Shown here: piece by piece, positions 14,317 through 27,756 of the stretch | How the letters are laid out: every line of letters begins with the position of its first letter | Position numbering within the stretch: the first letter of the stretch is position 1 | Assembly (NCBI RefSeq): GCF_001889405.1 | Contig: NZ_CP017921.1 | Location: forward strand, 572,057 to 636,056 | Direction: 5' to 3' | Length of the DNA stretch: 64,000 bases | Source of the DNA: Methanohalophilus halophilus | GTDB lineage: Archaea; Halobacteriota; Methanosarcinia; Methanosarcinales; Methanosarcinaceae | Made by a program: the position numbers and the translations under genes | Notes under the pieces: generated by a model | Told to the model about the DNA's origin: nothing | The model's database searches: none | Seen by the model: the letters and a program-made list of their open reading frames with translations, nothing else

Positions 14317-14505
14317 ATGTTACCGGACAATTGCAGTTTCTGTCAGGGGAAACTGGTTGAGAAAAACACCGAAGTGGAAGTCAAAAAAGCGGATGGGGAA
14401 AGTGTTTCTTTGAGAGTGCCTGCCTACGTTTGTGAGACCTGCGGAGAGGTTTACTATAAGCCCGAGGTTTCCCGGCAACTTGACAGGATTGCTTATAGCA
14501 GGTGA
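14317..14505 (+). CDS. YgiT-type zinc-finger (MqsA N-terminal-like) protein
   Basis: A 62-residue protein with two CxxC zinc knuckles (CSFCQG and CETCGE) and the VPAYVCETCG motif of the YgiT/MqsA N-terminal zinc domain. In type II toxin-antitoxin loci this domain belongs to the antitoxin. Here it lacks the C-terminal DNA-binding HTH of full MqsA, as is usual for the short archaeal forms, and no toxin (DUF4258 or MqsR) gene was found directly upstream; the preceding 275 bp hold no convincing ORF. It is therefore probably an orphan half of a module. Confidence 0.75.
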   Translation: MLPDNCSFCQGKLVEKNTEVEVKKADGESVSLRVPAYVCETCGEVYYKPEVSRQLDRIAYSR

Positions 14506-14544
14506 GGGCCTCCATAACTGCACAGGGACATATATCATGTCCAT

Positions 14545-14615
14545 TTTTGTTCACTTAATATAAATAACATGTGAACAAATTTACCCATAGTCCTTAATTT
14601 GGCTGCAAATCAACT
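14545..14615 (+). promoter_or_regulatory. orphan copy of the winged-helix gene promoter/operator
   Basis: TTGTTCAC (14547-14554) and GTGAACAA (14571-14578) form an inverted repeat around an ATATAAATAA TATA-like core. The stretch AATAACATGTGAACAAAT, then T/A-TACCCATA, matches the promoter and start-codon region of the winged-helix gene at 24.77 kb (minus strand there), and weak similarity runs on into where its first codons would be (CTTAATTTGG against CTGAATTTAA). No intact gene follows. This is best read as the remnant of a second copy of that locus. Confidence 0.55.
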
Positions 14616-14685: not shown

Positions 14686-15153
14686 ATGTTAAATGATGAT
14701 GAAATACAATCTCTGATTGGTGAAACAAAACCAGTTTCGGCGTTGTCCGTAAAAGATATTCGACCAATATTGAAAAAAGGTAGGCAGTACAAGGAATACG
14801 ATCTACCATTAACTTCCTCTAATGGAAATAGATTCCAAATCCGCATCCGTGTTAATGATAACAACCCATTTGACTTCTCAGTTATTTTGATGTATCAAGA
14901 ACCACAAAGCAAATTTTGGTATATTTTGAGACGATACAACGGTAAAAACCATACTCACAAGAATAAAATTGAAAAGGAAAAAATTCGTGGGTACCATATA
15001 CACAAAGCAACAGAACGCTATCAAAAGAGTGGATATAATATTGATGGATATGCGGAAGAAGCATTCACCTATTCTAATTGGCACGATGCACTAAGCGTCA
15101 TGTTGGATGATTGCAACATAAAAATAGAAGGAAAAACAATATATGATTATTGA
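14686..15153 (+). CDS. small protein of possible DUF6978 family, partner of the next gene
   Basis: A 155-residue cytosolic protein without signal peptide or membrane segment. The middle is beta-rich (RFQIRIRVND, FDFSVILMYQ), followed by a basic His-containing stretch (YNGKNHTHKNK, RGYHIHKATERYQ). It resembles what is annotated as DUF6978, proteins usually encoded just upstream of a DUF1828 gene; the assignment is from memory and tentative. The stop lies 15 bp before the ATG of the DUF1828 gene, so they form an operon. A toxin-antitoxin or defence role is plausible from such pairings but not shown. Confidence 0.5.
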   Translation: MLNDDEIQSLIGETKPVSALSVKDIRPILKKGRQYKEYDLPLTSSNGNRFQIRIRVNDNNPFDFSVILMYQEPQSKFWYILRRYNGKNHTHKNKIEKEKIRGYHIHKATERYQKSGYNIDGYAEEAFTYSNWHDALSVMLDDCNIKIEGKTIYDY

Positions 15154-15168
15154 AACGGAGTGTTAAAC

Positions 15169-15936
15169 ATGGAAACGGATCTGATAAAGACTCTACGGGA
15201 ATCCGTGTGCCAGGAGTTAGAGATTTTCCAGGAAGGAAAAGAACGATACGTAGTAGATACTCCGTTTGGATTTGATGATGGTGATTCTTTTGTAATAGTG
15301 CTAAAGAAAGATGAAGGCGGTTGGCACTTTACAGATGAAGGTCATACTTTAATGCATTTATCATATTATGATCTCGATATCCCCTCTACAAAAGGAAAAA
15401 GACGTTCATTTTTCAATAATATATTGGAAACGCATAATATAGAAGACCGAAATGGCGAACTGATTATTAGAATTGAAAATGAACAATATGGGGATTCTCT
15501 TTTTAGTTTCATACAGGCACTTACAAAAATAACAGATTTATCGTTCATCAGAAAACAGCACATATCCTCTTTATTTAAGGAAGATTTTAAGGAATATATG
15601 AAACAGACCTTTGGAGATAAATGTACTTTTAGTTATAGTGAGCCAAAGCATGACCCAGACGGCAACTATGTTGTCGATTGTTATGTCGATTTAGACCGGC
15701 CACTGTTGATTTTCGCACTTACAGGCGATTACAGGTGCAAAGACGCTATCATAACATGTTTGGCCTTCAAAGAATGGGGATACACATTTAATTCTATTGG
15801 TGTTTTTGAAGAAAGTAAAAACATTAGCCCAAAGGTTTTAGCTCAATCCATGGATTGGGTCGATAAGCAATTTTCAACATTGACATCCGCAAAGGAACTA
15901 ATGCCTGAGTATACCAAAAAAATGGCCTTATGCTAA
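15169..15936 (+). CDS. DUF1828/DUF1829 domain protein
   Basis: A 255-residue protein from the ATG at 15169, preceded by ACGGAGTG as ribosome binding site. The N-terminal 90 residues carry the DUF1828 pattern: DTPF-GFDDGDSFVI, a WHFTDEGHTL motif and SYYDLD. The later part (about 125-240) is DUF1829-like, with a CYVDLDRPLLIFAL strand-rich core. These domains occur in small two-gene modules in mobile regions of bacteria and archaea; biochemical activity is unknown. It follows the DUF6978-like gene by 15 bp. Confidence 0.65.
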   Translation: METDLIKTLRESVCQELEIFQEGKERYVVDTPFGFDDGDSFVIVLKKDEGGWHFTDEGHTLMHLSYYDLDIPSTKGKRRSFFNNILETHNIEDRNGELIIRIENEQYGDSLFSFIQALTKITDLSFIRKQHISSLFKEDFKEYMKQTFGDKCTFSYSEPKHDPDGNYVVDCYVDLDRPLLIFALTGDYRCKDAIITCLAFKEWGYTFNSIGVFEESKNISPKVLAQSMDWVDKQFSTLTSAKELMPEYTKKMALC

Positions 15937-17430: not shown

Positions 17431-17832
17431 GTGGCAACAAAGAGATGGACCTGTAGTAGGACAACTGTGTACAATATAGGGTATCACTTGATATGGTGTC
17501 CCAAATATCGCAGAAAAGTTCTCGAAGAACATATCCAAAACAGACTAAGGGAACTGTTGTTAGAAAAAGCCTATGAAATCGGGATAACAATAGAAAAGAT
17601 GGAGGTCCTTCCAGATCATGTGCATTTGTTTGTGAAATCCCCGCCTACAGCAAGTCCACACTGGATAGTTCAGCAATTAAAAGGCTATAGTTCAAGGATT
17701 CTCAGACAAGAGTTTCCTGAACTCAAATCGAGGTTGCCTACACTCTGGACAAGAAGTTATTATTGTGAATCGGTTGGACATATTTCGCAAAAATCCGTTG
17801 AAAAATATATCGAGCAGCAGAAGAATGTATGA
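17431..17832 (+). CDS. tnpA: TnpA, IS200/IS605 HUH/Y1 transposase
   Basis: A 133-residue single-strand DNA transposase. The HUH metal motif is in PDHVHLF (H-V-H) near residues 63-65, the WCPKYRRKVL signature lies near residue 23, and the catalytic tyrosine is in SVEKYIEQQ near the C-terminus. Length matches intact family members. The start is GTG. The tnpB ATG overlaps its stop by 4 bp, indicating coupled translation. Confidence 0.93.
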   Translation: MATKRWTCSRTTVYNIGYHLIWCPKYRRKVLEEHIQNRLRELLLEKAYEIGITIEKMEVLPDHVHLFVKSPPTASPHWIVQQLKGYSSRILRQEFPELKSRLPTLWTRSYYCESVGHISQKSVEKYIEQQKNV

Positions 17833-18845
17833 TATTGACCTACAAAATCAAGCATAATCGGGACTTTTCCGGACAACTCTTGAAAGCAAGGAGAATAGCC
17901 GAATATGTAGTAGCTCACAAACCGTCTTCTGCAAAATTAACTTCCAGGGATGTAAAGCATTTTGGGCTGAAATCTGTCATATCCAATCAGATTATCAGGA
18001 AATATGGACGGAATAAAAGAATAAAGAAAGTCAGTCGAGTAAATCTGATTATTCCAAATCAGGGCATACAGATTAAGGAAGATAACATCATCTATATTTC
18101 TTCTTTGAAGTTGAATCTCAAATATCAGTTTCCCGGTAACTTTGAGAAAATCAATCAGATAGAAATCAATCAAGAATATGCTTTTGTTTCTGTAACAATT
18201 CCTGAAAATACTGAATATGAACCTGAACACTGGCTGGGTGTGGACAGGAATACCACAGGACATGTAGTTGTTGCTGGTGAACCTGATAGTGGGAAGGTAC
18301 TGAAACTTGGAAAACATGCACAGCACACTCATAATAAATATAAAAATATCAGGAAGCGATTGCAGAAACAGGGTAAATACAGAAAGGTCAAACAGATTAA
18401 AAATCGGGAAAGCAGAATAGTTCGTGATTTAAATCACAAGATGAGCAGGAAAATTGTTGATACTGCCAAATCAAATAATAGCGGAATTAAACTTGAAAAA
18501 CTTAAAGGCATAAGGAAAAACCGCAAACATGCGAAATCATTCATGTACTCCTTGAACAGTTGGTCCTTCTATCAATTGCAAACAATGATAGAATACAAGG
18601 CCAGGCTGCTTGGAGTACCGGTTTCCTATATCGATCCGGCATATACTTCTCAGAAATGCAGCAGGTGTGGACATATTGGAGACAGGAATGGCAAAGTATT
18701 TGAGTGTCCTGCATGTGGACACATTGATCATGCGGATGTTAATGCAGCTTTCAATATTGCGTTATCTCCATGCATGAGTCAATCCAGTGCAGAAAGTGAT
18801 GTACTGGAAGGGAGTACTGATGCCCCTAAAGTGGCAATGGCTTGA
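17829..18845 (+). CDS. tnpB: TnpB RNA-guided endonuclease of the IS605 element
   Basis: A 338-residue TnpB. RuvC-like acidic residues are visible in order: D in WLGVDRNTTGH, E in IKLEKLKGI, and D in HADVNAAFN. A zinc ribbon of two CxxC pairs (CSRCGH and CPACGH) separates the last two. It is somewhat short compared with the typical 370-430 residues, with a reduced N-terminal region; the catalytic set is complete. The family cuts DNA guided by an RNA made from the element's right end, here expected to overlap the 3' end of the gene and the 18865-18885 hairpin. Confidence 0.9.
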   Translation: MILTYKIKHNRDFSGQLLKARRIAEYVVAHKPSSAKLTSRDVKHFGLKSVISNQIIRKYGRNKRIKKVSRVNLIIPNQGIQIKEDNIIYISSLKLNLKYQFPGNFEKINQIEINQEYAFVSVTIPENTEYEPEHWLGVDRNTTGHVVVAGEPDSGKVLKLGKHAQHTHNKYKNIRKRLQKQGKYRKVKQIKNRESRIVRDLNHKMSRKIVDTAKSNNSGIKLEKLKGIRKNRKHAKSFMYSLNSWSFYQLQTMIEYKARLLGVPVSYIDPAYTSQKCSRCGHIGDRNGKVFECPACGHIDHADVNAAFNIALSPCMSQSSAESDVLEGSTDAPKVAMA

Positions 18846-19164
18846 AAGCAGTCAACCACAGAACCCCACGGACTTTAGTCGTGGGAGTATGTCAGTAATC
18901 GAGGAAGGTGTGCTAATAAAAAAATTATTGTTTGTTAATACCAAATCTTTCCTCAAACAATTCTGCGATTTTATAGGAGAGGGTATTTAGATAGACGGTG
19001 CCCCAGAAAGCTACTACAATCGATCCTATCAAATTGAATAGCATGTCATCCATTGTATCATGAATACCATGCTGCACAAGAAAAGCGTCTATTCCAAGCA
19101 TCAATGCCAATTCATCGGTTATGAATTCCAGAATCTCCCAAAAAATTACACCTACTGAAAGGGT

Positions 19165-19300
19165 GAACTACACCACGCTTACGCATGGTGCTTCCTGCTT
19201 CATTCTTTGAACTTATGTTCACAAGTCCACAGGCTCTTCCCGTAGTTCCTACGGTGCTTCAAATGCCTATCAAATTCTGTTTATTTAAGGCAAACTTCTT
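19165..19300 (-). ncRNA. candidate right-end guide RNA (reRNA/omegaRNA) of the standalone TnpB
   Basis: In this family the guide RNA is transcribed from the 3' end of tnpB through the element's right end. Here that stretch carries two stable hairpins (19240-19254 and 19171-19190), and the guide segment would be host DNA just beyond about 19165. Position and structure fit; no expression evidence is available from sequence. Confidence 0.4.
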
Positions 19301-20380
19301 AATGTTGATTGCAGCATTGACATCTCTGTCATGAGATGCACCACAATCAGGACATTGCCATTGCCTATCTGCAAGTGTCAGGTCTTTATTGTAATATCCA
19401 CACACATTACAAATTTTAGTCGATGGCTCAAACTGCCCAATTCTCAAAATAGTTTTGCCATACCACTGTGCTTTATACTCCAACTTTGACACGAAAGAGC
19501 TCCATGAAGCATCAGAGATGGATTGAGCAAGACAATGATTTTTCAACATGCCGTTAACATTTAATGTTTCCAGTGCAATTGCTTGGTTCTCGCTTATCAA
19601 TCTGGAACTTAATTTATGCTGAAAATCATGTCTCTGATTGCTTATATTTTCATGAAGTTTTGCGATTGCTATCTTAACCTTTTCCCTGTTTTTCGAACCT
19701 TTTTGCTTTCGTGAAAGACGTTTGTGCAAGACTTTCAGTCTCTTGATTGACTTTTTCAAATTCGATGGATTTGCGATTTTGGTACCATCTGATATTATTA
19801 CAAAATCCTTGATACCTACATCTATACCCACCGTATTGTTTTCCGAAAATTCCGATTTTTTCGGGGTTTCCAGACCACTATCTACAAGAATACTAATGTA
19901 GTATTTTCCGGTAGGTGTGCGTGATACTGTAGCGGTTTTTAGGTCTCCATCTCCGTAGTGGCGGTGTAAAATAGTCTTGACGTTACCTATTTTCGGAAGG
20001 TATATCTTATTATTCTCAAAATCAACCTTGTAATTCTGAGGAACACTGTACGCCTGTACTGGATTTTTCTTTGATTTAAACTTGGGAAAACCCCTTTTCT
20101 CTCTGAAAAATCGTGTAAAGGCATTATCGAGATTGAGAGTAGCACCCTGCAATGACTGAGAATTAACGTCTTTGAGCCATTCGTGCTCTCCGTCTCTTTT
20201 CAAAATTGTAATTCCTTTATTCAGGTCAAACCTTGAGATTGATTTTCCATCCTGTTCATAGGATTTGATTTTGTTTTCCAAAGCCCAGTTATAGATGAAT
20301 CTACATGCACCAAAATGTTTATGGAACATTTCAATTTGGTTTTTGTTAGGATACATCCGGTATCGGTAGGCTTTCAGCAT
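19259..20380 (-). CDS. tnpB: TnpB RNA-guided endonuclease, standalone
   Basis: A 373-residue full-length TnpB from the ATG at 20380; an open frame continues upstream but the conserved N-terminus begins at MLKAYRYRMYPNKNQ. Order: N-terminal helix bundle with FIYNWALE, RuvC acid D in VGIDVGIKDF, a basic helix RLKVLHKRLSRKQKGS, E in IALETLNV, a zinc ribbon with CNVCGY and CPDCGA, and D in DRDVNAAINI. All catalytic and zinc residues are present, so it should be an active reRNA-guided nuclease. It is a different lineage from the tnpB at 17.8 kb. Confidence 0.93.
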   Translation of the reverse strand: MLKAYRYRMYPNKNQIEMFHKHFGACRFIYNWALENKIKSYEQDGKSISRFDLNKGITILKRDGEHEWLKDVNSQSLQGATLNLDNAFTRFFREKRGFPKFKSKKNPVQAYSVPQNYKVDFENNKIYLPKIGNVKTILHRHYGDGDLKTATVSRTPTGKYYISILVDSGLETPKKSEFSENNTVGIDVGIKDFVIISDGTKIANPSNLKKSIKRLKVLHKRLSRKQKGSKNREKVKIAIAKLHENISNQRHDFQHKLSSRLISENQAIALETLNVNGMLKNHCLAQSISDASWSSFVSKLEYKAQWYGKTILRIGQFEPSTKICNVCGYYNKDLTLADRQWQCPDCGASHDRDVNAAINIKKFALNKQNLIGI

Positions 20381-20528
20381 GCAATTAACAATTGGACTTA
20401 ACATTATATATATTTTGTACCAGATGCACGGTGTGTAGAATATGAAAGGTGGAACCATTGGTAATATAAGCAAAAAAGTTACCCAATACATCCATAATCA
20501 GGGTAAAAGTGACGCTTACATATCCAAC

Positions 20529-21786: not shown

Positions 21787-22806
21787 TCATAAGAGGTCAT
21801 ATTTTGCAACCATTGCTTTTGTAATATCCATCGCAGAATATCCCATTCCTGCCAGATCCAGAAGTGCCTGGGAAGTAGATACGATACGAACACCCTCTAT
21901 TTCCAGAGTGTTCTGGAAAACTTCTCTGTCAGGCCTATAGATTATCGCCTTTATACTATTTGCCGGAGAGGATTCGAATAATTCTCTAAAATAATCTATA
22001 TACTCATCATTCAGGTATAAGTAAACTGCATCATTACGTACGCTGTAACCGGCATACAAAGCAGCTGCCGTGTATGAAGTAAAGCCGACTGGTATGTTGT
22101 GCTGCATTGAAAATGCCCGGGTAATTTCCCTTGCTGCATGCATAGATTCACTGAAGGGAATCTGGATTTCGCAACTTTTAAGGTTGGTTAGAGGACGTTC
22201 CCAAGCAATACCATTTAGCAGTTTATCGACATTAGAAATACTTACACGGTTGTTTTCCTTTTTCACAATATTCTGCTGAATAAGTGCCTGGATTGTTTTG
22301 TGCGCCCAGCCGTACGATATATCTTCACCAATTGCCAACTGCCGGATTGAAGTTTTCTTTTCTTTCAAAAGGCGGGATACTATTTTCCATGATTTGGCCG
22401 AAGTAATTCGATGGTTGCTGGGTTTGGACTGTTTTTCAGTGGCGAGTTTAATAGACCAGGGAAGTTTTACCATGGTGATGTCCAATTGGTCCATAAGCCG
22501 TTTTTCTCGTTCAGGAAAGGATTTGGCGGCAATAACCAATTGTATTTCTTTTGGGAATTTGCTTTTTAAACAGAAATCCCGAAGAAGATTTAATCTTGCA
22601 ATAACGTCTACAGTGGCTTTCGATTTAACCCCAATAAAATAGATAGTGTTATTTTCTTCTACTATTAGATCAGGATAGATAGGAAGATCCATTGCAATAT
22701 TTTCGCTTAAAGTAGTGATGTCGGTATGGAGGGATTGTGGTGAAATATCCAGGTCTTTGCGGATATGGTTTTGCACGTTGTTCCAATCAGTAGTTTCTGC
22801 ACTCAT
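21787..22806 (-). CDS. AbiEi-like regulator with N-terminal nuclease-like domain
   Basis: A 339-residue protein in three parts. Residues about 40-105 look like a PD-(D/E)xK fold core: PDLIVEENN then YFIGVKSKA, but the expected acidic residue before V-K is glycine (G59), so the site is probably inactive. Residues about 130-190 are a winged helix (IRQLAIGEDISYGWAHKTI). Residues 200-335 resemble the AbiEi antitoxin C-terminal region (TAAALYAGY, VRIVSTSQALLDLAGMG). AbiEi proteins are DNA-binding antitoxins that repress their own promoter; a perfect palindrome sits 8 bp upstream of this start. A cognate AbiEii-like nucleotidyltransferase is not adjacent, though one lies 190 bp upstream with its own regulator. 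Confidence 0.6.
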   Translation of the reverse strand: MSAETTDWNNVQNHIRKDLDISPQSLHTDITTLSENIAMDLPIYPDLIVEENNTIYFIGVKSKATVDVIARLNLLRDFCLKSKFPKEIQLVIAAKSFPEREKRLMDQLDITMVKLPWSIKLATEKQSKPSNHRITSAKSWKIVSRLLKEKKTSIRQLAIGEDISYGWAHKTIQALIQQNIVKKENNRVSISNVDKLLNGIAWERPLTNLKSCEIQIPFSESMHAAREITRAFSMQHNIPVGFTSYTAAALYAGYSVRNDAVYLYLNDEYIDYFRELFESSPANSIKAIIYRPDREVFQNTLEIEGVRIVSTSQALLDLAGMGYSAMDITKAMVAKYDLL

Positions 22807-22813
22807 CTGTAAC

Positions 22814-22831
22814 TATCACTATATAGTGATA
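22814..22831 (-). promoter_or_regulatory. palindromic operator candidate of the AbiEi-like gene
   Basis: TATCACTATATAGTGATA is a perfect 18-bp palindrome ending 8 bp before the gene start. A TATA-like TTTATATAG lies just upstream of it on the minus strand (about 22832-22840), so the palindrome would sit at the transcription start, the usual place for an archaeal repressor site. A half-site-like ATCAGTGAT recurs about 20 bp further away. Confidence 0.6.
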
Positions 22832-22914
22832 CCTATATAAACCTATCAGTGATAATCCCATATTCCCAGATAAAAGAAATATTTGCATGCACACGCATAA
22901 TCAACATACGAGTG
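22832..22914 (+). repeat. copy of the DUF234-ATPase upstream region
   Basis: From TATATAAACCTATCAGTGATAAT to ATAATCAACATACGA this stretch resembles the plus-strand leader of the ATPase gene at 24.84-24.92 kb and the leader of its remnant at 44.6 kb (shared: ATATAAAC-TATCAGTGATAAT, TTCCAGAT-A, AT-ATCAA-ATACGA). No ATPase coding sequence follows; an IS remnant does. It suggests a lost third copy. Confidence 0.45.
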
Positions 22915-22995: not shown

Positions 22996-23835
22996 TCACC
23001 TATATCTTGTATTTTGATCATGGCCTTCATCTGGTTTCAATGAAAATATTCCCTGCTTATCCTTAAGCACAACCCCTTGTTTAATAAGTTTATCAAGTAT
23101 GACCTCTACATCATTTTGATCAAGCCCATCACTAATTTCAGATATTTGCCTGGGGCTCATACTCAACCTTTCTTTGATAAAACCGATAAGCATATCTTCT
23201 TCCGCAATGTCATGCAGTCTTGCAACGATCGGATGAGTTATATGATATTTATCAAAGAAGTCTTCCACTCCATCAAAAAAGAATGCCATCCAGGCATAAT
23301 CATTTTGTTTATGCTCGTTTTGCCAGAAAAATTCTTTTTCTATTATATCAAAGTCCAGAACTTTGCTAAATAACGAATACATATCTTCCTGGTCTCTTTC
23401 TCTTGTTGTTATCGACTTAAAAACAAAAATATCCTCCGGGCATATCATATAAACAGAAACATGTTCCATTTTCAAGAGTTGAATAGAACGCTCTATCATG
23501 CCATCTGACAGCCGAAGTCCTCCACAAATAACATTAACAAAGATATCCCATCGAAACCCATCAGTATTTTCGAGTATCGAATTTGCTTCCATTTGTTTGT
23601 ATGGACCACGAACTACAGGAATGAAATAATTTAGCGACTGCAGTGCTGTTACAATAAGACCCAATTCATGGTTAGACCTTACCACGACATCAATATCTTT
23701 GGTAGCAGCTTTATATTTTTGAAAACTCATTGAGCCACCACCAATAAGATAGAGGGTTATATGTTCGTCCAATACCTCATTGAGTTTTTCAAATTCTTTT
23801 TGTAAATATTGTTTATCAAATAATTTTGAGACCAT
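22996..23835 (-). CDS. nucleotidyltransferase-fold protein, DUF6036-like
   Basis: A 279-residue protein. The N-terminal half has the minimal nucleotidyltransferase pattern of AbiEii/DUF6036 proteins: LIGGGSMSFQ (31-40) followed by KDIDVVV with two aspartates (D47, D49). A helical middle contains FKSITTRERDQEDM, a motif shared with AbiEii-type proteins (K...R.KD..D). The last 70 residues look like a small winged helix (MSPRQISEISDGLDQNDVE). It starts 13 bp after the winged-helix regulator gene and is surely in its operon. By analogy with AbiE it could be the toxin, transferring nucleotides to tRNA or protein; that is inference. Confidence 0.7.
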   Translation of the reverse strand: MVSKLFDKQYLQKEFEKLNEVLDEHITLYLIGGGSMSFQKYKAATKDIDVVVRSNHELGLIVTALQSLNYFIPVVRGPYKQMEANSILENTDGFRWDIFVNVICGGLRLSDGMIERSIQLLKMEHVSVYMICPEDIFVFKSITTRERDQEDMYSLFSKVLDFDIIEKEFFWQNEHKQNDYAWMAFFFDGVEDFFDKYHITHPIVARLHDIAEEDMLIGFIKERLSMSPRQISEISDGLDQNDVEVILDKLIKQGVVLKDKQGIFSLKPDEGHDQNTRYR

Positions 23836-23848
23836 GTATATGCACTCC

Positions 23849-24766
23849 TTATTGTATATCTTTTACCAAGTCGATGAATTCGCTCCATGGAAGAAGAAAA
23901 CTACTATTTTTTTCCTTATCCTGTAAATATTCCTGAAGGATTTTAGCATGATCTTCCATATCATACATTTTACCAAATTTTACCAGTCCTGCAGAACCTG
24001 TTTTTAAGTAAAGGGCCAACGCATAAGAATTATATATTGAACTATGGGGATCTATCAAGATCGTGTGAAGCACGTAATCTTCAACTTTAAGATCTCTTTT
24101 ACTGTAAAAATAATATCCCATGTCACTTATGACCTTCAGACTATATTTTGGAAATATACTCATTGCAGTAGGTTGTATCGATTCTTTTTTCACCGGATTA
24201 TCTGAATTAATAAAATCGGTATCGATTTTGAACAAAAATTCCGGCCCTCTTTGCCAGATCAAAACAGCATTTGGAGAAATCTCTTTCAGGATTTTATTTG
24301 TCCTATATTTCCAATAGTTATCAACAAATCTTCTAATAAAAGAATGCCGTTCACTAAAAAAATATTTCTTGTTTTTTTGCAGGATTATTCCATATTTTGT
24401 GAGTTCTTCAATGGCAGATGCCACCGTTTTTCTATTCAATCCGGTTTTTGTAACAACATCACTGATCGAACATGAATTATTCAAAACTGCCAGAATATGT
24501 AGTGCTGAATTTGTAAGGATTTTTTTTAGTGGCAGACGAGGATATTCAATGAGGATATCCTCCAATGACCTAGAATGCAGTGATTCAGAACGAGTTACGT
24601 AGGTATACCGGCCTTGATTTTGTTTTACAACAAAACCGTCTTCAACGAGTGAATTTATGGATTTGGAAATTGTGGAATGATCCAGATTCAGAAGTGTTGA
24701 TAACTCGGATATGGATCTCGAATGAGTTAGATGTTTGAATATTTGTATTTTAGTTAAATTCAGCAT
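23849..24766 (-). CDS. tandem winged-helix regulator paired with the nucleotidyltransferase
   Basis: A 305-residue protein with two winged helices: residues about 5-60 (ISELSTLLNLDHSTISKSI) and 85-140 (ISDVVTKTGLNRKTVASAI), followed by a 160-residue C-terminal domain of unclear type with FVDNYWKYRTN, VLIWQRGPEFLFK and LHTILIDPHSS. The layout is that of an autoregulating antitoxin. It is first in a two-gene operon with the DUF6036-like gene, behind an inverted repeat overlapping the TATA region (24781-24806). A decayed copy of its promoter and start occurs at 14.55 kb. Proposed as the antitoxin of a type IV AbiE-like module; not proven. Confidence 0.65.
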   Translation of the reverse strand: MLNLTKIQIFKHLTHSRSISELSTLLNLDHSTISKSINSLVEDGFVVKQNQGRYTYVTRSESLHSRSLEDILIEYPRLPLKKILTNSALHILAVLNNSCSISDVVTKTGLNRKTVASAIEELTKYGIILQKNKKYFFSERHSFIRRFVDNYWKYRTNKILKEISPNAVLIWQRGPEFLFKIDTDFINSDNPVKKESIQPTAMSIFPKYSLKVISDMGYYFYSKRDLKVEDYVLHTILIDPHSSIYNSYALALYLKTGSAGLVKFGKMYDMEDHAKILQEYLQDKEKNSSFLLPWSEFIDLVKDIQ

Positions 24767-24780
24767 TATGGGTATATTTG

Positions 24781-24806
24781 TTCACATGTTATTTATATCA
24801 TGTGAA
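24781..24806 (-). promoter_or_regulatory. inverted-repeat operator of the winged-helix/nucleotidyltransferase operon
   Basis: TTCACATG (24781-24788) and CATGTGAA (24799-24806) are perfect 8-bp arms separated by 10 bp holding a TATA-like ATATAAAT (minus strand). The site is 15-40 bp before the gene start, so a bound protein would block transcription. The same arrangement recurs at 14547-14578. Confidence 0.6.
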
Positions 24807-24937
24807 TAAAATTGGACATTTTATCGCTCAGGGTGTAGTGACACTATATAAACTTATCAGTGATAATACTCTTTCCAGATTCAGAAAAATCTCCAGCCAC
24901 AAACATTATCAATATACGAAACACAATCATAATAAAC

Positions 24938-26356
24938 ATGTTTCGTAAATTTGTGGATCGGGGCGAAGAACTCAATTCCCTGGAAAAAGAGTATGCAAAC
25001 GGCGGATTTTCCTTCACGGTAATCTACGGCCGGCGCAGGATTGGTAAAACCGAATTGATAACACATTACATCCGGGATAAGCCGCATATCTATTTCCTGG
25101 CAGACCTTAGGGGCACCTCCTCCAATGTCGAGAGGTTTAGAAAGAGGGCTGCAGATTTTTTTGATGATTTCGAACCCCGTGTGGAGGGCTTTGACGGTGT
25201 CTTTGAGTATATCGCCAAAAAGTGGGACAGAGAAGAAAAACTGGTGGTGGCAATCGATGAATTTTCCTATCTTGTGCAGCAGGACGGTTCCATTCCTTCA
25301 GTCTTCCAGTTGATAACCGACGAAATACTCAGAGAAAGACCCGTTCATCTAATCCTGTGTGGCTCTTCGATTTCTATGATGGAAAAAAGTACCCTGGCCC
25401 ATTCCAGTCCCCTCTATGGCAGACGCACCGGCCAAATTCAAACAAAACCAATCCCTTTCAGGAATATTCAGCAATTTTTCCCGGATATATCATTGGAAGA
25501 ATGCATGCAGATCTATGGAGTGACAGGCGGGATTCCCTATTACCTATTGTTCTTTGATCCGGAAAAAGAATTTGTCGCAAATCTTGAAAACAATGTGTTT
25601 GCCACGGATGCGGTGCTCTATGAGGAAAGCGATTTTCTGCTGCGGGAGGAGATCAGGGAGCCGGCAACTTTCATGAATATCCTGCATGCTATTGCCACAG
25701 GCGCATCCAGACCTGCAGAGATTGCCACCAGAGCATATCTTCAGCCCAAGGATCTTTCCTATTACTTGAAGATGCTTATGAAACTCGGGTTTGTAAGCAG
25801 ACAACATCCGATTGCAGACAAACCTGCCACAAAAAAGACCATTTACAAGTTGGAGGATAATTTCCTGAGATTCTGGTTTCGTTTTGTATTGCCTCACAAA
25901 GATGAACTGGAGCCGGGAAATGTAGTGCCTGCACTGGAGGATATAAAAAAGAATTATGATCGTTTTCTGGGGATGACTTTTGAAGATGTAGGCAAAGAGG
26001 CATTGATCCATCTCAACTCAGCAGGCAAACTGCCCTTCACTTTTCGCAAGATCGGCAGACAATGGGGCAAAATTGCTGCAGCTACCAGGGGAAAAAATGA
26101 TTACGAGATAGATCTTGTGGCCCTTAACGCAGAATCCCGGGATATCCTGTTCTGCGAATGCAAGTGGCAGAAGCAAAAGGTTGGACCGGATGTGTACTAT
26201 TCCCTGAAAGAAAAGGGCGGCTTTGTGGACTGGCATCCTGAAGGCCAAAAACATTTCGCCCTGATAAGCCGGGCAGGTTTTACTTCCCGGATGCGGGAGA
26301 TTGCAGAGGAAGAGAAAGTGATTCTGATTGATCTGGCAGATATGATTAAGGGATGA
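24938..26356 (+). CDS. archaeal ATPase (Arch_ATPase/DUF234 family)
   Basis: A 472-residue ATPase from the ATG at 24938, where the family's N-terminus (MFRKFVDRGEELNSLEK) begins; an in-frame upstream start at 24860 would add 26 unlikely residues. Walker A is GRRRIGKT (31-38), Walker B is VVAIDEFSYL, then LCGSSISMM. The C-terminal DUF234 part carries a PD-(D/E)xK-like core: DYEIDLVAL followed by LFCECKW. The family is expanded and mobile in archaea; function unknown. An internally deleted remnant lies at 44.6 kb and an orphan leader at 22.85 kb, so the locus has been copied within this chromosome. Confidence 0.9.
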   Translation: MFRKFVDRGEELNSLEKEYANGGFSFTVIYGRRRIGKTELITHYIRDKPHIYFLADLRGTSSNVERFRKRAADFFDDFEPRVEGFDGVFEYIAKKWDREEKLVVAIDEFSYLVQQDGSIPSVFQLITDEILRERPVHLILCGSSISMMEKSTLAHSSPLYGRRTGQIQTKPIPFRNIQQFFPDISLEECMQIYGVTGGIPYYLLFFDPEKEFVANLENNVFATDAVLYEESDFLLREEIREPATFMNILHAIATGASRPAEIATRAYLQPKDLSYYLKMLMKLGFVSRQHPIADKPATKKTIYKLEDNFLRFWFRFVLPHKDELEPGNVVPALEDIKKNYDRFLGMTFEDVGKEALIHLNSAGKLPFTFRKIGRQWGKIAAATRGKNDYEIDLVALNAESRDILFCECKWQKQKVGPDVYYSLKEKGGFVDWHPEGQKHFALISRAGFTSRMREIAEEEKVILIDLADMIKG

Positions 26357-27256: not shown

Positions 27257-27529
27257 TCAGGATTGATATTTCCGATAGATTGTTTTACGATCCCCAACTT
27301 CTACAATAAATATTAACATTCTATTGTTTTCGATTGTCAAGATGACTCTATATTCCCCAACCCGGTGAGAATATAGAGGTTGTTTACCTATGCCTTTCAA
27401 TTTTTTTATGTTACAATAGGGATCGTTTTTCAATTCTTCTATTGAACTGATTATGCTCTCACTTACAGTTATAGATAGTTTTTTTAACTGTTTCAATGAT
27501 TTGTTTGTATAGATTACGTCGTAACTCAT
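27257..27529 (-). CDS. RelE/ParE-family toxin
   Basis: A 90-residue protein of the RelE/StbE superfamily: SLKQLKKL near the N-terminus, YCNIKKLKGIG, then the RVGEYRVILTIENNRMLIFIVEVGDRKTIYRK-type core (R-V-G-x-Y-R-V, V-x-x-V-G-x-R), with the C-terminal Y/R typical of ribosome-dependent mRNA interferases. Its ATG overlaps the stop of the antitoxin gene by 4 bp. A complete type II toxin-antitoxin pair. The toxin is expected to cleave mRNA at the ribosome when the antitoxin is degraded. Confidence 0.87.
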   Translation of the reverse strand: MSYDVIYTNKSLKQLKKLSITVSESIISSIEELKNDPYCNIKKLKGIGKQPLYSHRVGEYRVILTIENNRMLIFIVEVGDRKTIYRKYQS

Positions 27530-27756
27530 AACAAACCAAGCTCTTTCTTGACCTCATCTTCACTATAGGTCCTACCCATTTTGATGTCTTCCAAAGCTTC
27601 TTCAATGTCCTGAATAGCTTCATCACTTAGTTCATCCTCGTCGATTGCCATCCTGGTTAATCTCTCGATTACAGAATTAAAGGATTCTTTTGGGTATTTT
27701 TTTAGAACTTTAAGTTTTTCTTTTGTTTGCGGATCCACACAGATAGTAGTTGCCAT
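27526..27756 (-). CDS. antitoxin of the RelE-like pair
   Basis: A 76-residue protein: the N-terminus (ATTICVDPQTKEKLKVLKK) resembles archaeal RelB/VapB-type antitoxins, the middle has NSVIERLTR, and the acidic C-terminus (EEALEDIKMGRTYSEDEVKKELGLL) is the usual toxin-wrapping helix ending in the K-x-x-L-G motif. It precedes and overlaps the toxin gene by 4 bp, the normal order for autoregulation by the antitoxin-toxin complex. Confidence 0.85.
   Translation of the reverse strand: MATTICVDPQTKEKLKVLKKYPKESFNSVIERLTRMAIDEDELSDEAIQDIEEALEDIKMGRTYSEDEVKKELGLL

Follow-up and report, generated by a model that had tools for sequence, protein, structure and literature searches.

Organization of the gene pair

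The window analyzed here is a 64-kb stretch of a host genome that consists of a single 2.02-Mb contig; the host is probably a Methanohalophilus-like methanogen, to which Methanohalobium is closely related. The window carries two genes on the minus strand separated by a 13-bp gap (23836 to 23848). The first (23849 to 24766) encodes a 305-residue tandem winged-helix protein, a putative repressor and antitoxin, and the second (22996 to 23835) encodes a 279-residue nucleotidyltransferase (NTase), the putative toxin. A predicted operator occupies 24781 to 24806 on the same strand: the inverted repeat TTCACATG-N10-CATGTGAA, whose 8-bp arms pair with 0 mismatches, surrounds the TATA-like element ATATAAATAA and is centered about 27 nt upstream of the ATG. 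These features, along with aspartates 47 and 49 of the NTase and an unfamiliar C-terminal domain in the regulator, had been named in a preliminary description of the locus, and all of them were confirmed.

The AlphaFold2 model of the repressor (pLDDT, 92.3) comprises two winged helices and a C-terminal domain. The first winged helix (residues 4 to 59; 24590 to 24757, minus strand) has HTH_24/ArsR-like matches and the second (residues about 80 to 138; 24353 to 24529, minus strand) has Csa3/HTH-type matches. The C-terminal domain (residues 168 to 305; 23852 to 24265, minus strand) belongs to the Pfam family HVO_2833_C (PF24271); its score of 34.2 to 35.8 bits is just above the gathering cut-off of 34, and the domain is present in 31 of 31 repressor homologues. 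A profile search of the PDB with this domain returned no match at an E value of <0.3, and a PHROGs search yielded generic winged-helix matches only. No AbiEi match occurs in Pfam, and the PADLOC AbiEi profile matches residues 6 to 71 only (E value, 3e-4), corresponding to a generic winged helix. The family records examined assign no function to DUF6036 or HVO_2833_C, and a literature search on HVO_2833 and DUF6036 returned no paper in which either term is used.

The NTase scores 45.3 bits against PF19502 (DUF6036; gathering cut-off, 23.6), and the only NTase families that it matches are DUF6036 and DUF2204. PF08843 (AbiEii) has no match in this protein and does not appear in the list of families for 35 relatives. 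Residues invariant in 35 relatives include G32, G33, T45, D47, D49, D97, K140, R145, D148, and D151, and they correspond to motifs I to IV of AbiEii/MenT toxins: GG at 32 and 33, D47xD49, K140 and R145, and DxxD at 148 to 151. Motif II (T45-K46-D47-I48-D49; 23689 to 23703, minus strand) has a lysine, K46, in place of arginine; D97 (23545 to 23547, minus strand) is a third candidate metal-binding aspartate; and motifs III and IV lie at 23383 to 23418 (minus strand). In AbiEii, mutation of motifs I to IV, as defined in the same study, abolishes toxicity (PMC3985639). The catalytic residues of MenT1 are T39, D41, K137, and D152 (PMC10435456), of which T39 is auto-phosphorylated under MenA1 (PMC11375011). 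Their counterparts in the window protein are T45, D47, K140, and D148/D151, with T45 and D47 matched by HMMER alignment and the other residues by motif order.

The model of the NTase (pLDDT, 90.5) has a pol-beta fold followed by a C-terminal winged-helix-like domain (residues about 202 to 266; 23038 to 23232, minus strand) with MarR/Z-alpha-type profile matches, a domain found in most members and missing from a short subgroup (L047 and L049). MenT1 is the best PDB profile match (E value, 6e-4). With the model as query, Foldseek ranks LnuA first (3e-4) and MenT1 second (4e-4), with ANT(2'')-Ia among the top matches, so the fold alone leaves open whether the protein is a toxin or a resistance enzyme. 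With the whole repressor as query, Foldseek gave generic winged-helix matches only, aside from RPC62 and SelB (query-normalized TM scores of <0.25), which we set aside as winged-helix-stack noise.

Predicted operators and proposed autorepression

Dyads that span the TATA element recur in relatives of the repressor gene. We sorted 103 distinct upstream regions into 34 sequence families, most of which have such a dyad, usually centered ~27 nt before the start codon. Mean dyad complementarity is 0.56, versus 0.41 for shuffled sequences, with 56% of families lying above the 95th percentile of the shuffles, so that the dyads exceed what chance would give. Their recurrence in families of different sequence argues for conserved autorepression, and the constant geometry of arms whose sequences vary by lineage argues for selection on dimer binding. 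In many families the half-sites form two nested pairs, with a spacing of about 12 bp within each arm, an arrangement that would fit two winged helices per repressor monomer. The dyad is weak or missing in some families, partly owing to possible misassignment of the start codon. The position of the dyad would imply leaderless transcripts and interference with TBP/TFB.

Operator-like sites with up to 2 mismatches occur twice in the window (0.04 expected), and these two are the only ones in the genome, making a wider regulon of the repressor unlikely. The second site (14550 to 14575) is part of a diverged copy of the repressor gene's promoter (14537 to 14600, plus strand), which is 88% identical over 64 bp and has no winged-helix gene behind it. 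Relatives of this copy are present in five of six congeners tested (L156 to L162), with varied cargo genes behind them, and some of these genomes are without the winged-helix gene; such copies may mark a hotspot where cassettes are exchanged downstream of a shared promoter. A 62-residue CxxC zinc-finger protein resembling YgiT-type antitoxins (14317 to 14505) is kept upstream of orphan operator copies in several congeners.

Linkage, distribution, and mobility

The two genes are tightly linked. Among 295 genomes surveyed in the phylum, 45 contain the NTase, 44 contain the winged-helix gene, and 39 contain both (hypergeometric test, P of about 1e-36), and the NTase follows the winged-helix gene at 45 of 56 winged-helix loci. 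A scan of named GTDB genomes recovered 303 NTase relatives, and in all 80 of the best 80, for which the upstream gene was checked, a winged-helix gene lies directly upstream, at one locus (L113) with an insertion of ~1.4 kb. Most of these best 80 have a 4-nt start/stop overlap between the genes instead of the gap seen in the window. The hosts are haloarchaea, Methanosarcinales, Thermoplasmata, Bathyarchaeota, Thaumarchaeota/Nitrososphaerota, Asgard lineages, and Hydrothermarchaeota, along with one Atribacterota metagenome-assembled genome, possibly a case of contamination. In one haloarchaeon (L053, 3885 bp), a TnpB-like gene sits between the two genes.

Natural fusions of the two proteins occur in some haloarchaea: those at L029 and L030 are 556 to 558 residues long, and on a Halalkaliarchaeum plasmid a gene annotated as an "ArsR regulator" spans an NTase match. 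Intact close NTases nearly always keep the winged-helix partner or are fused to it. Full-length winged-helix genes without the NTase were found in at least 5 haloarchaea, where they retain the operator and in some cases adjoin VapBC-like genes, although the asymmetry is small (5 winged-helix orphans versus about 1 NTase orphan).

The pair is mobile. Only 2 of 8 congeners possess it; in one of them (G012), a 3.1-kb block that is 87% identical occupies a different site, and the genes flanking the pair in the window are adjacent to each other in G012 and in a second genome (G163). The NTase is carried on 88 plasmid records, and one cassette is 99.9 to 100% identical over 1801 bp among Halorubrum, Halobellus, Halorussus, and Halobacterium. 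Integration at a tRNA gene was considered and is unsupported, since scans for Rfam families and tRNA genes around the locus gave no hits.

A 339-residue gene (21787 to 22806) adjoins the pair; in two congeners (G012 and G085) an NTase gene lies behind it, of which the one in G012 passes the AbiEii Pfam cut-off (24.6 versus 22.5 bits), and at congener loci L147 and L150 it precedes an AbiEii-type NTase. From these comparisons, the copy in the window looks like an orphan antitoxin-like gene whose NTase is gone. Immediately 5' of its ATG (about 22814 to 22831) is the perfect 18-bp palindrome TATCACTATATAGTGATA. Similar promoter-like elements are present on both sides of the winged-helix–NTase pair (22804 to 22887 and 24836 to 24919) and are possibly a recombination site. 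Divergent from the pair is a gene for an archaeal ATPase with a DUF234 domain (24860 to 26356), which matches the PADLOC candidate PDC-S27 (E value, 2.5e-50) and fragments of which are left in congeners. Elsewhere in the window are a DUF6978 gene followed by a DUF1828 gene that matches the candidate defense family PDC-M24B (14686 to 15936); a ParE/RelE-like toxin of 90 residues whose start is overlapped by a 76-residue antitoxin-like open reading frame (27257 to 27756); and, as read from the sequence, IS200/IS605-type TnpA/TnpB-like open reading frames and a second TnpB-like frame near the island (17431 to 20491).

Proposed function of the pair and relation to known systems

We consider it probable that the locus is a mobile archaeal module resembling a toxin-antitoxin system, working in the manner of AbiE and MenAT with a different antitoxin. 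In such a module, a repressor dimer bound at its own promoter would cover the TATA box and block TBP/TFB, as the conserved TATA-spanning operators suggest. Loss of the antitoxin, through plasmid loss, stress, or infection, would free the NTase, which might then add nucleotides to RNA, most likely at the tRNA 3' end, and stop growth. The tandem winged-helix protein would neutralize the NTase by repression, with HVO_2833_C probably making direct contact as well. The target of such contact may be the invariant T45, in parallel with the effect of MenA1 on T39 of MenT1, a role for T45 that the alignment of the two residues suggests. The fusions count against a toxin-antitoxin reading, since they are unusual for antitoxins that need to be degraded. 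The preliminary description had also offered a defense function; the lack of any relative of the pair in the phage records and viral contigs searched, and of any PADLOC match for the NTase, provides no direct support for a defensive role, and any antiviral activity would be conjectural.

A bolder form of this proposal, which we advance tentatively and think somewhat unlikely, is that the pair forms a distinct, archaea-centered class of NTase toxin-antitoxin systems in which the tandem winged-helix/HVO_2833_C protein would repress the core promoter and also trigger a T45 phosphorylation that switches the NTase off, with the single-chain fusions acting as self-contained sensors.

The fusions can be read differently, as a repressor and an enzyme joined in one chain within a toxin-free, self-regulating maintenance or regulatory module, in which the NTase would modify the winged-helix protein or RNA and thereby switch repression, as in plasmid control. 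The winged helix of the NTase itself, the operator kept by orphan winged-helix genes, and an Orc1/Cdc6 gene near a fused copy are in keeping with such a module. We nevertheless regard it as distinctly unlikely, given that the NTase is dispensable and patchy among the congeners and that two operator-like sites in an entire genome leave no regulon for it to serve.

It is also improbable that the pair is a regulator-plus-enzyme operon, in which an LnuA/ANT-like NTase would inactivate a small molecule and the winged-helix protein would be a ligand-responsive repressor with HVO_2833_C as its sensor. Resistance genes seldom show the near-absolute 1:1 linkage and the fusions seen here across archaeal phyla, the residues of motifs III and IV (K140, R145, and DxxD) are the AbiEii set, and the flanks that were read contain no transporter or resistance genes accompanying the pair, although the placing of LnuA and ANT(2'')-Ia among the structural matches, the carriage on plasmids, and a TATA-blocking mode of repression, which also suits an inducible enzyme, are in keeping with an enzyme of this type.

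To our knowledge, few types of toxin-antitoxin systems have been characterized in archaea, and this pair is present in hundreds of archaeal genomes, moved by plasmids, under labels of "unknown function." If our preferred reading of a toxin-antitoxin-like module is correct, the AbiEii/MenT-type toxin core is paired with at least one further, unrelated antitoxin, and both HVO_2833_C and DUF6036 acquire a function. The predicted operator and active site make this reading testable, and, according to control searches, two tractable species, Haloferax volcanii and Methanosarcina acetivorans, have both Pfam families.

Among known systems, AbiE (AbiEi/AbiEii, type IV) is one of the closest, and the preliminary description had likened the logic of the pair to it. 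That likeness is well supported: an autorepressor-like gene precedes an AbiEii/MenT-like pol-beta NTase with motifs I to IV, inverted repeats lie over the core promoter, and the pair is patchy, plasmid borne, and frequently transferred. Family membership is not supported. AbiE antitoxins (AbiEi/COG5340) have an N-terminal winged helix and an AbiEi C-terminal domain, whereas the repressor here has two winged helices and HVO_2833_C; the toxin of AbiE is AbiEii/DUF1814, whereas the NTase here is a DUF6036 protein in which lysine replaces the arginine of motif II and which ends in an additional winged helix. Fusions occur here, and the pair is essentially archaeal in the scans made. Features that mark AbiE include binding of the repressor to inverted repeats in its own promoter, for which the conserved dyads over the TATA box would be the candidate sites here, and neutralization of toxicity without protein-protein interaction. 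Profile comparison with the genuine AbiEii-type pair beside the cassette in a congener did not group the window proteins with it, and hhalign aligned the NTase to the genuine AbiEii-type protein there over only 42 residues of the NTase core. Despite the shared gene order, motifs, inverted-repeat operator, and gene-pair logic, it is therefore very improbable that the pair truly belongs to AbiE.

MenAT1 and MenAT3 of Mycobacterium tuberculosis have DUF1814 NTase toxins that modify tRNA by transferring nucleotides to its 3' end. They share the core fold with the window NTase, which has equivalents of T39, D41, K137, and the acidic D152 region of MenT1, although MenT1 has no C-terminal winged helix. 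The partners also differ: MenA1 is a 68-residue protein and MenA3 is a COG5340 protein, and neither is a tandem winged-helix protein with HVO_2833_C.

LnuA, a lincosamide adenylyltransferase, and ANT(2'') resemble the NTase in core fold but are stand-alone resistance enzymes with no obligate tandem winged-helix repressor partner. HEPN-MNT (HepT/MntA; PDC-M05) likewise places an NTase in a two-gene toxin-antitoxin module that is common in archaea, but the roles differ, with the NTase serving as antitoxin and HEPN as toxin. The window locus has no HEPN gene, and a tandem winged-helix partner at every one of the best 80 of 303 relatives leads us to reject this system. The window pair belongs to both the DUF6036 and the HVO_2833_C family of Pfam (HVO_2833 of Haloferax volcanii).
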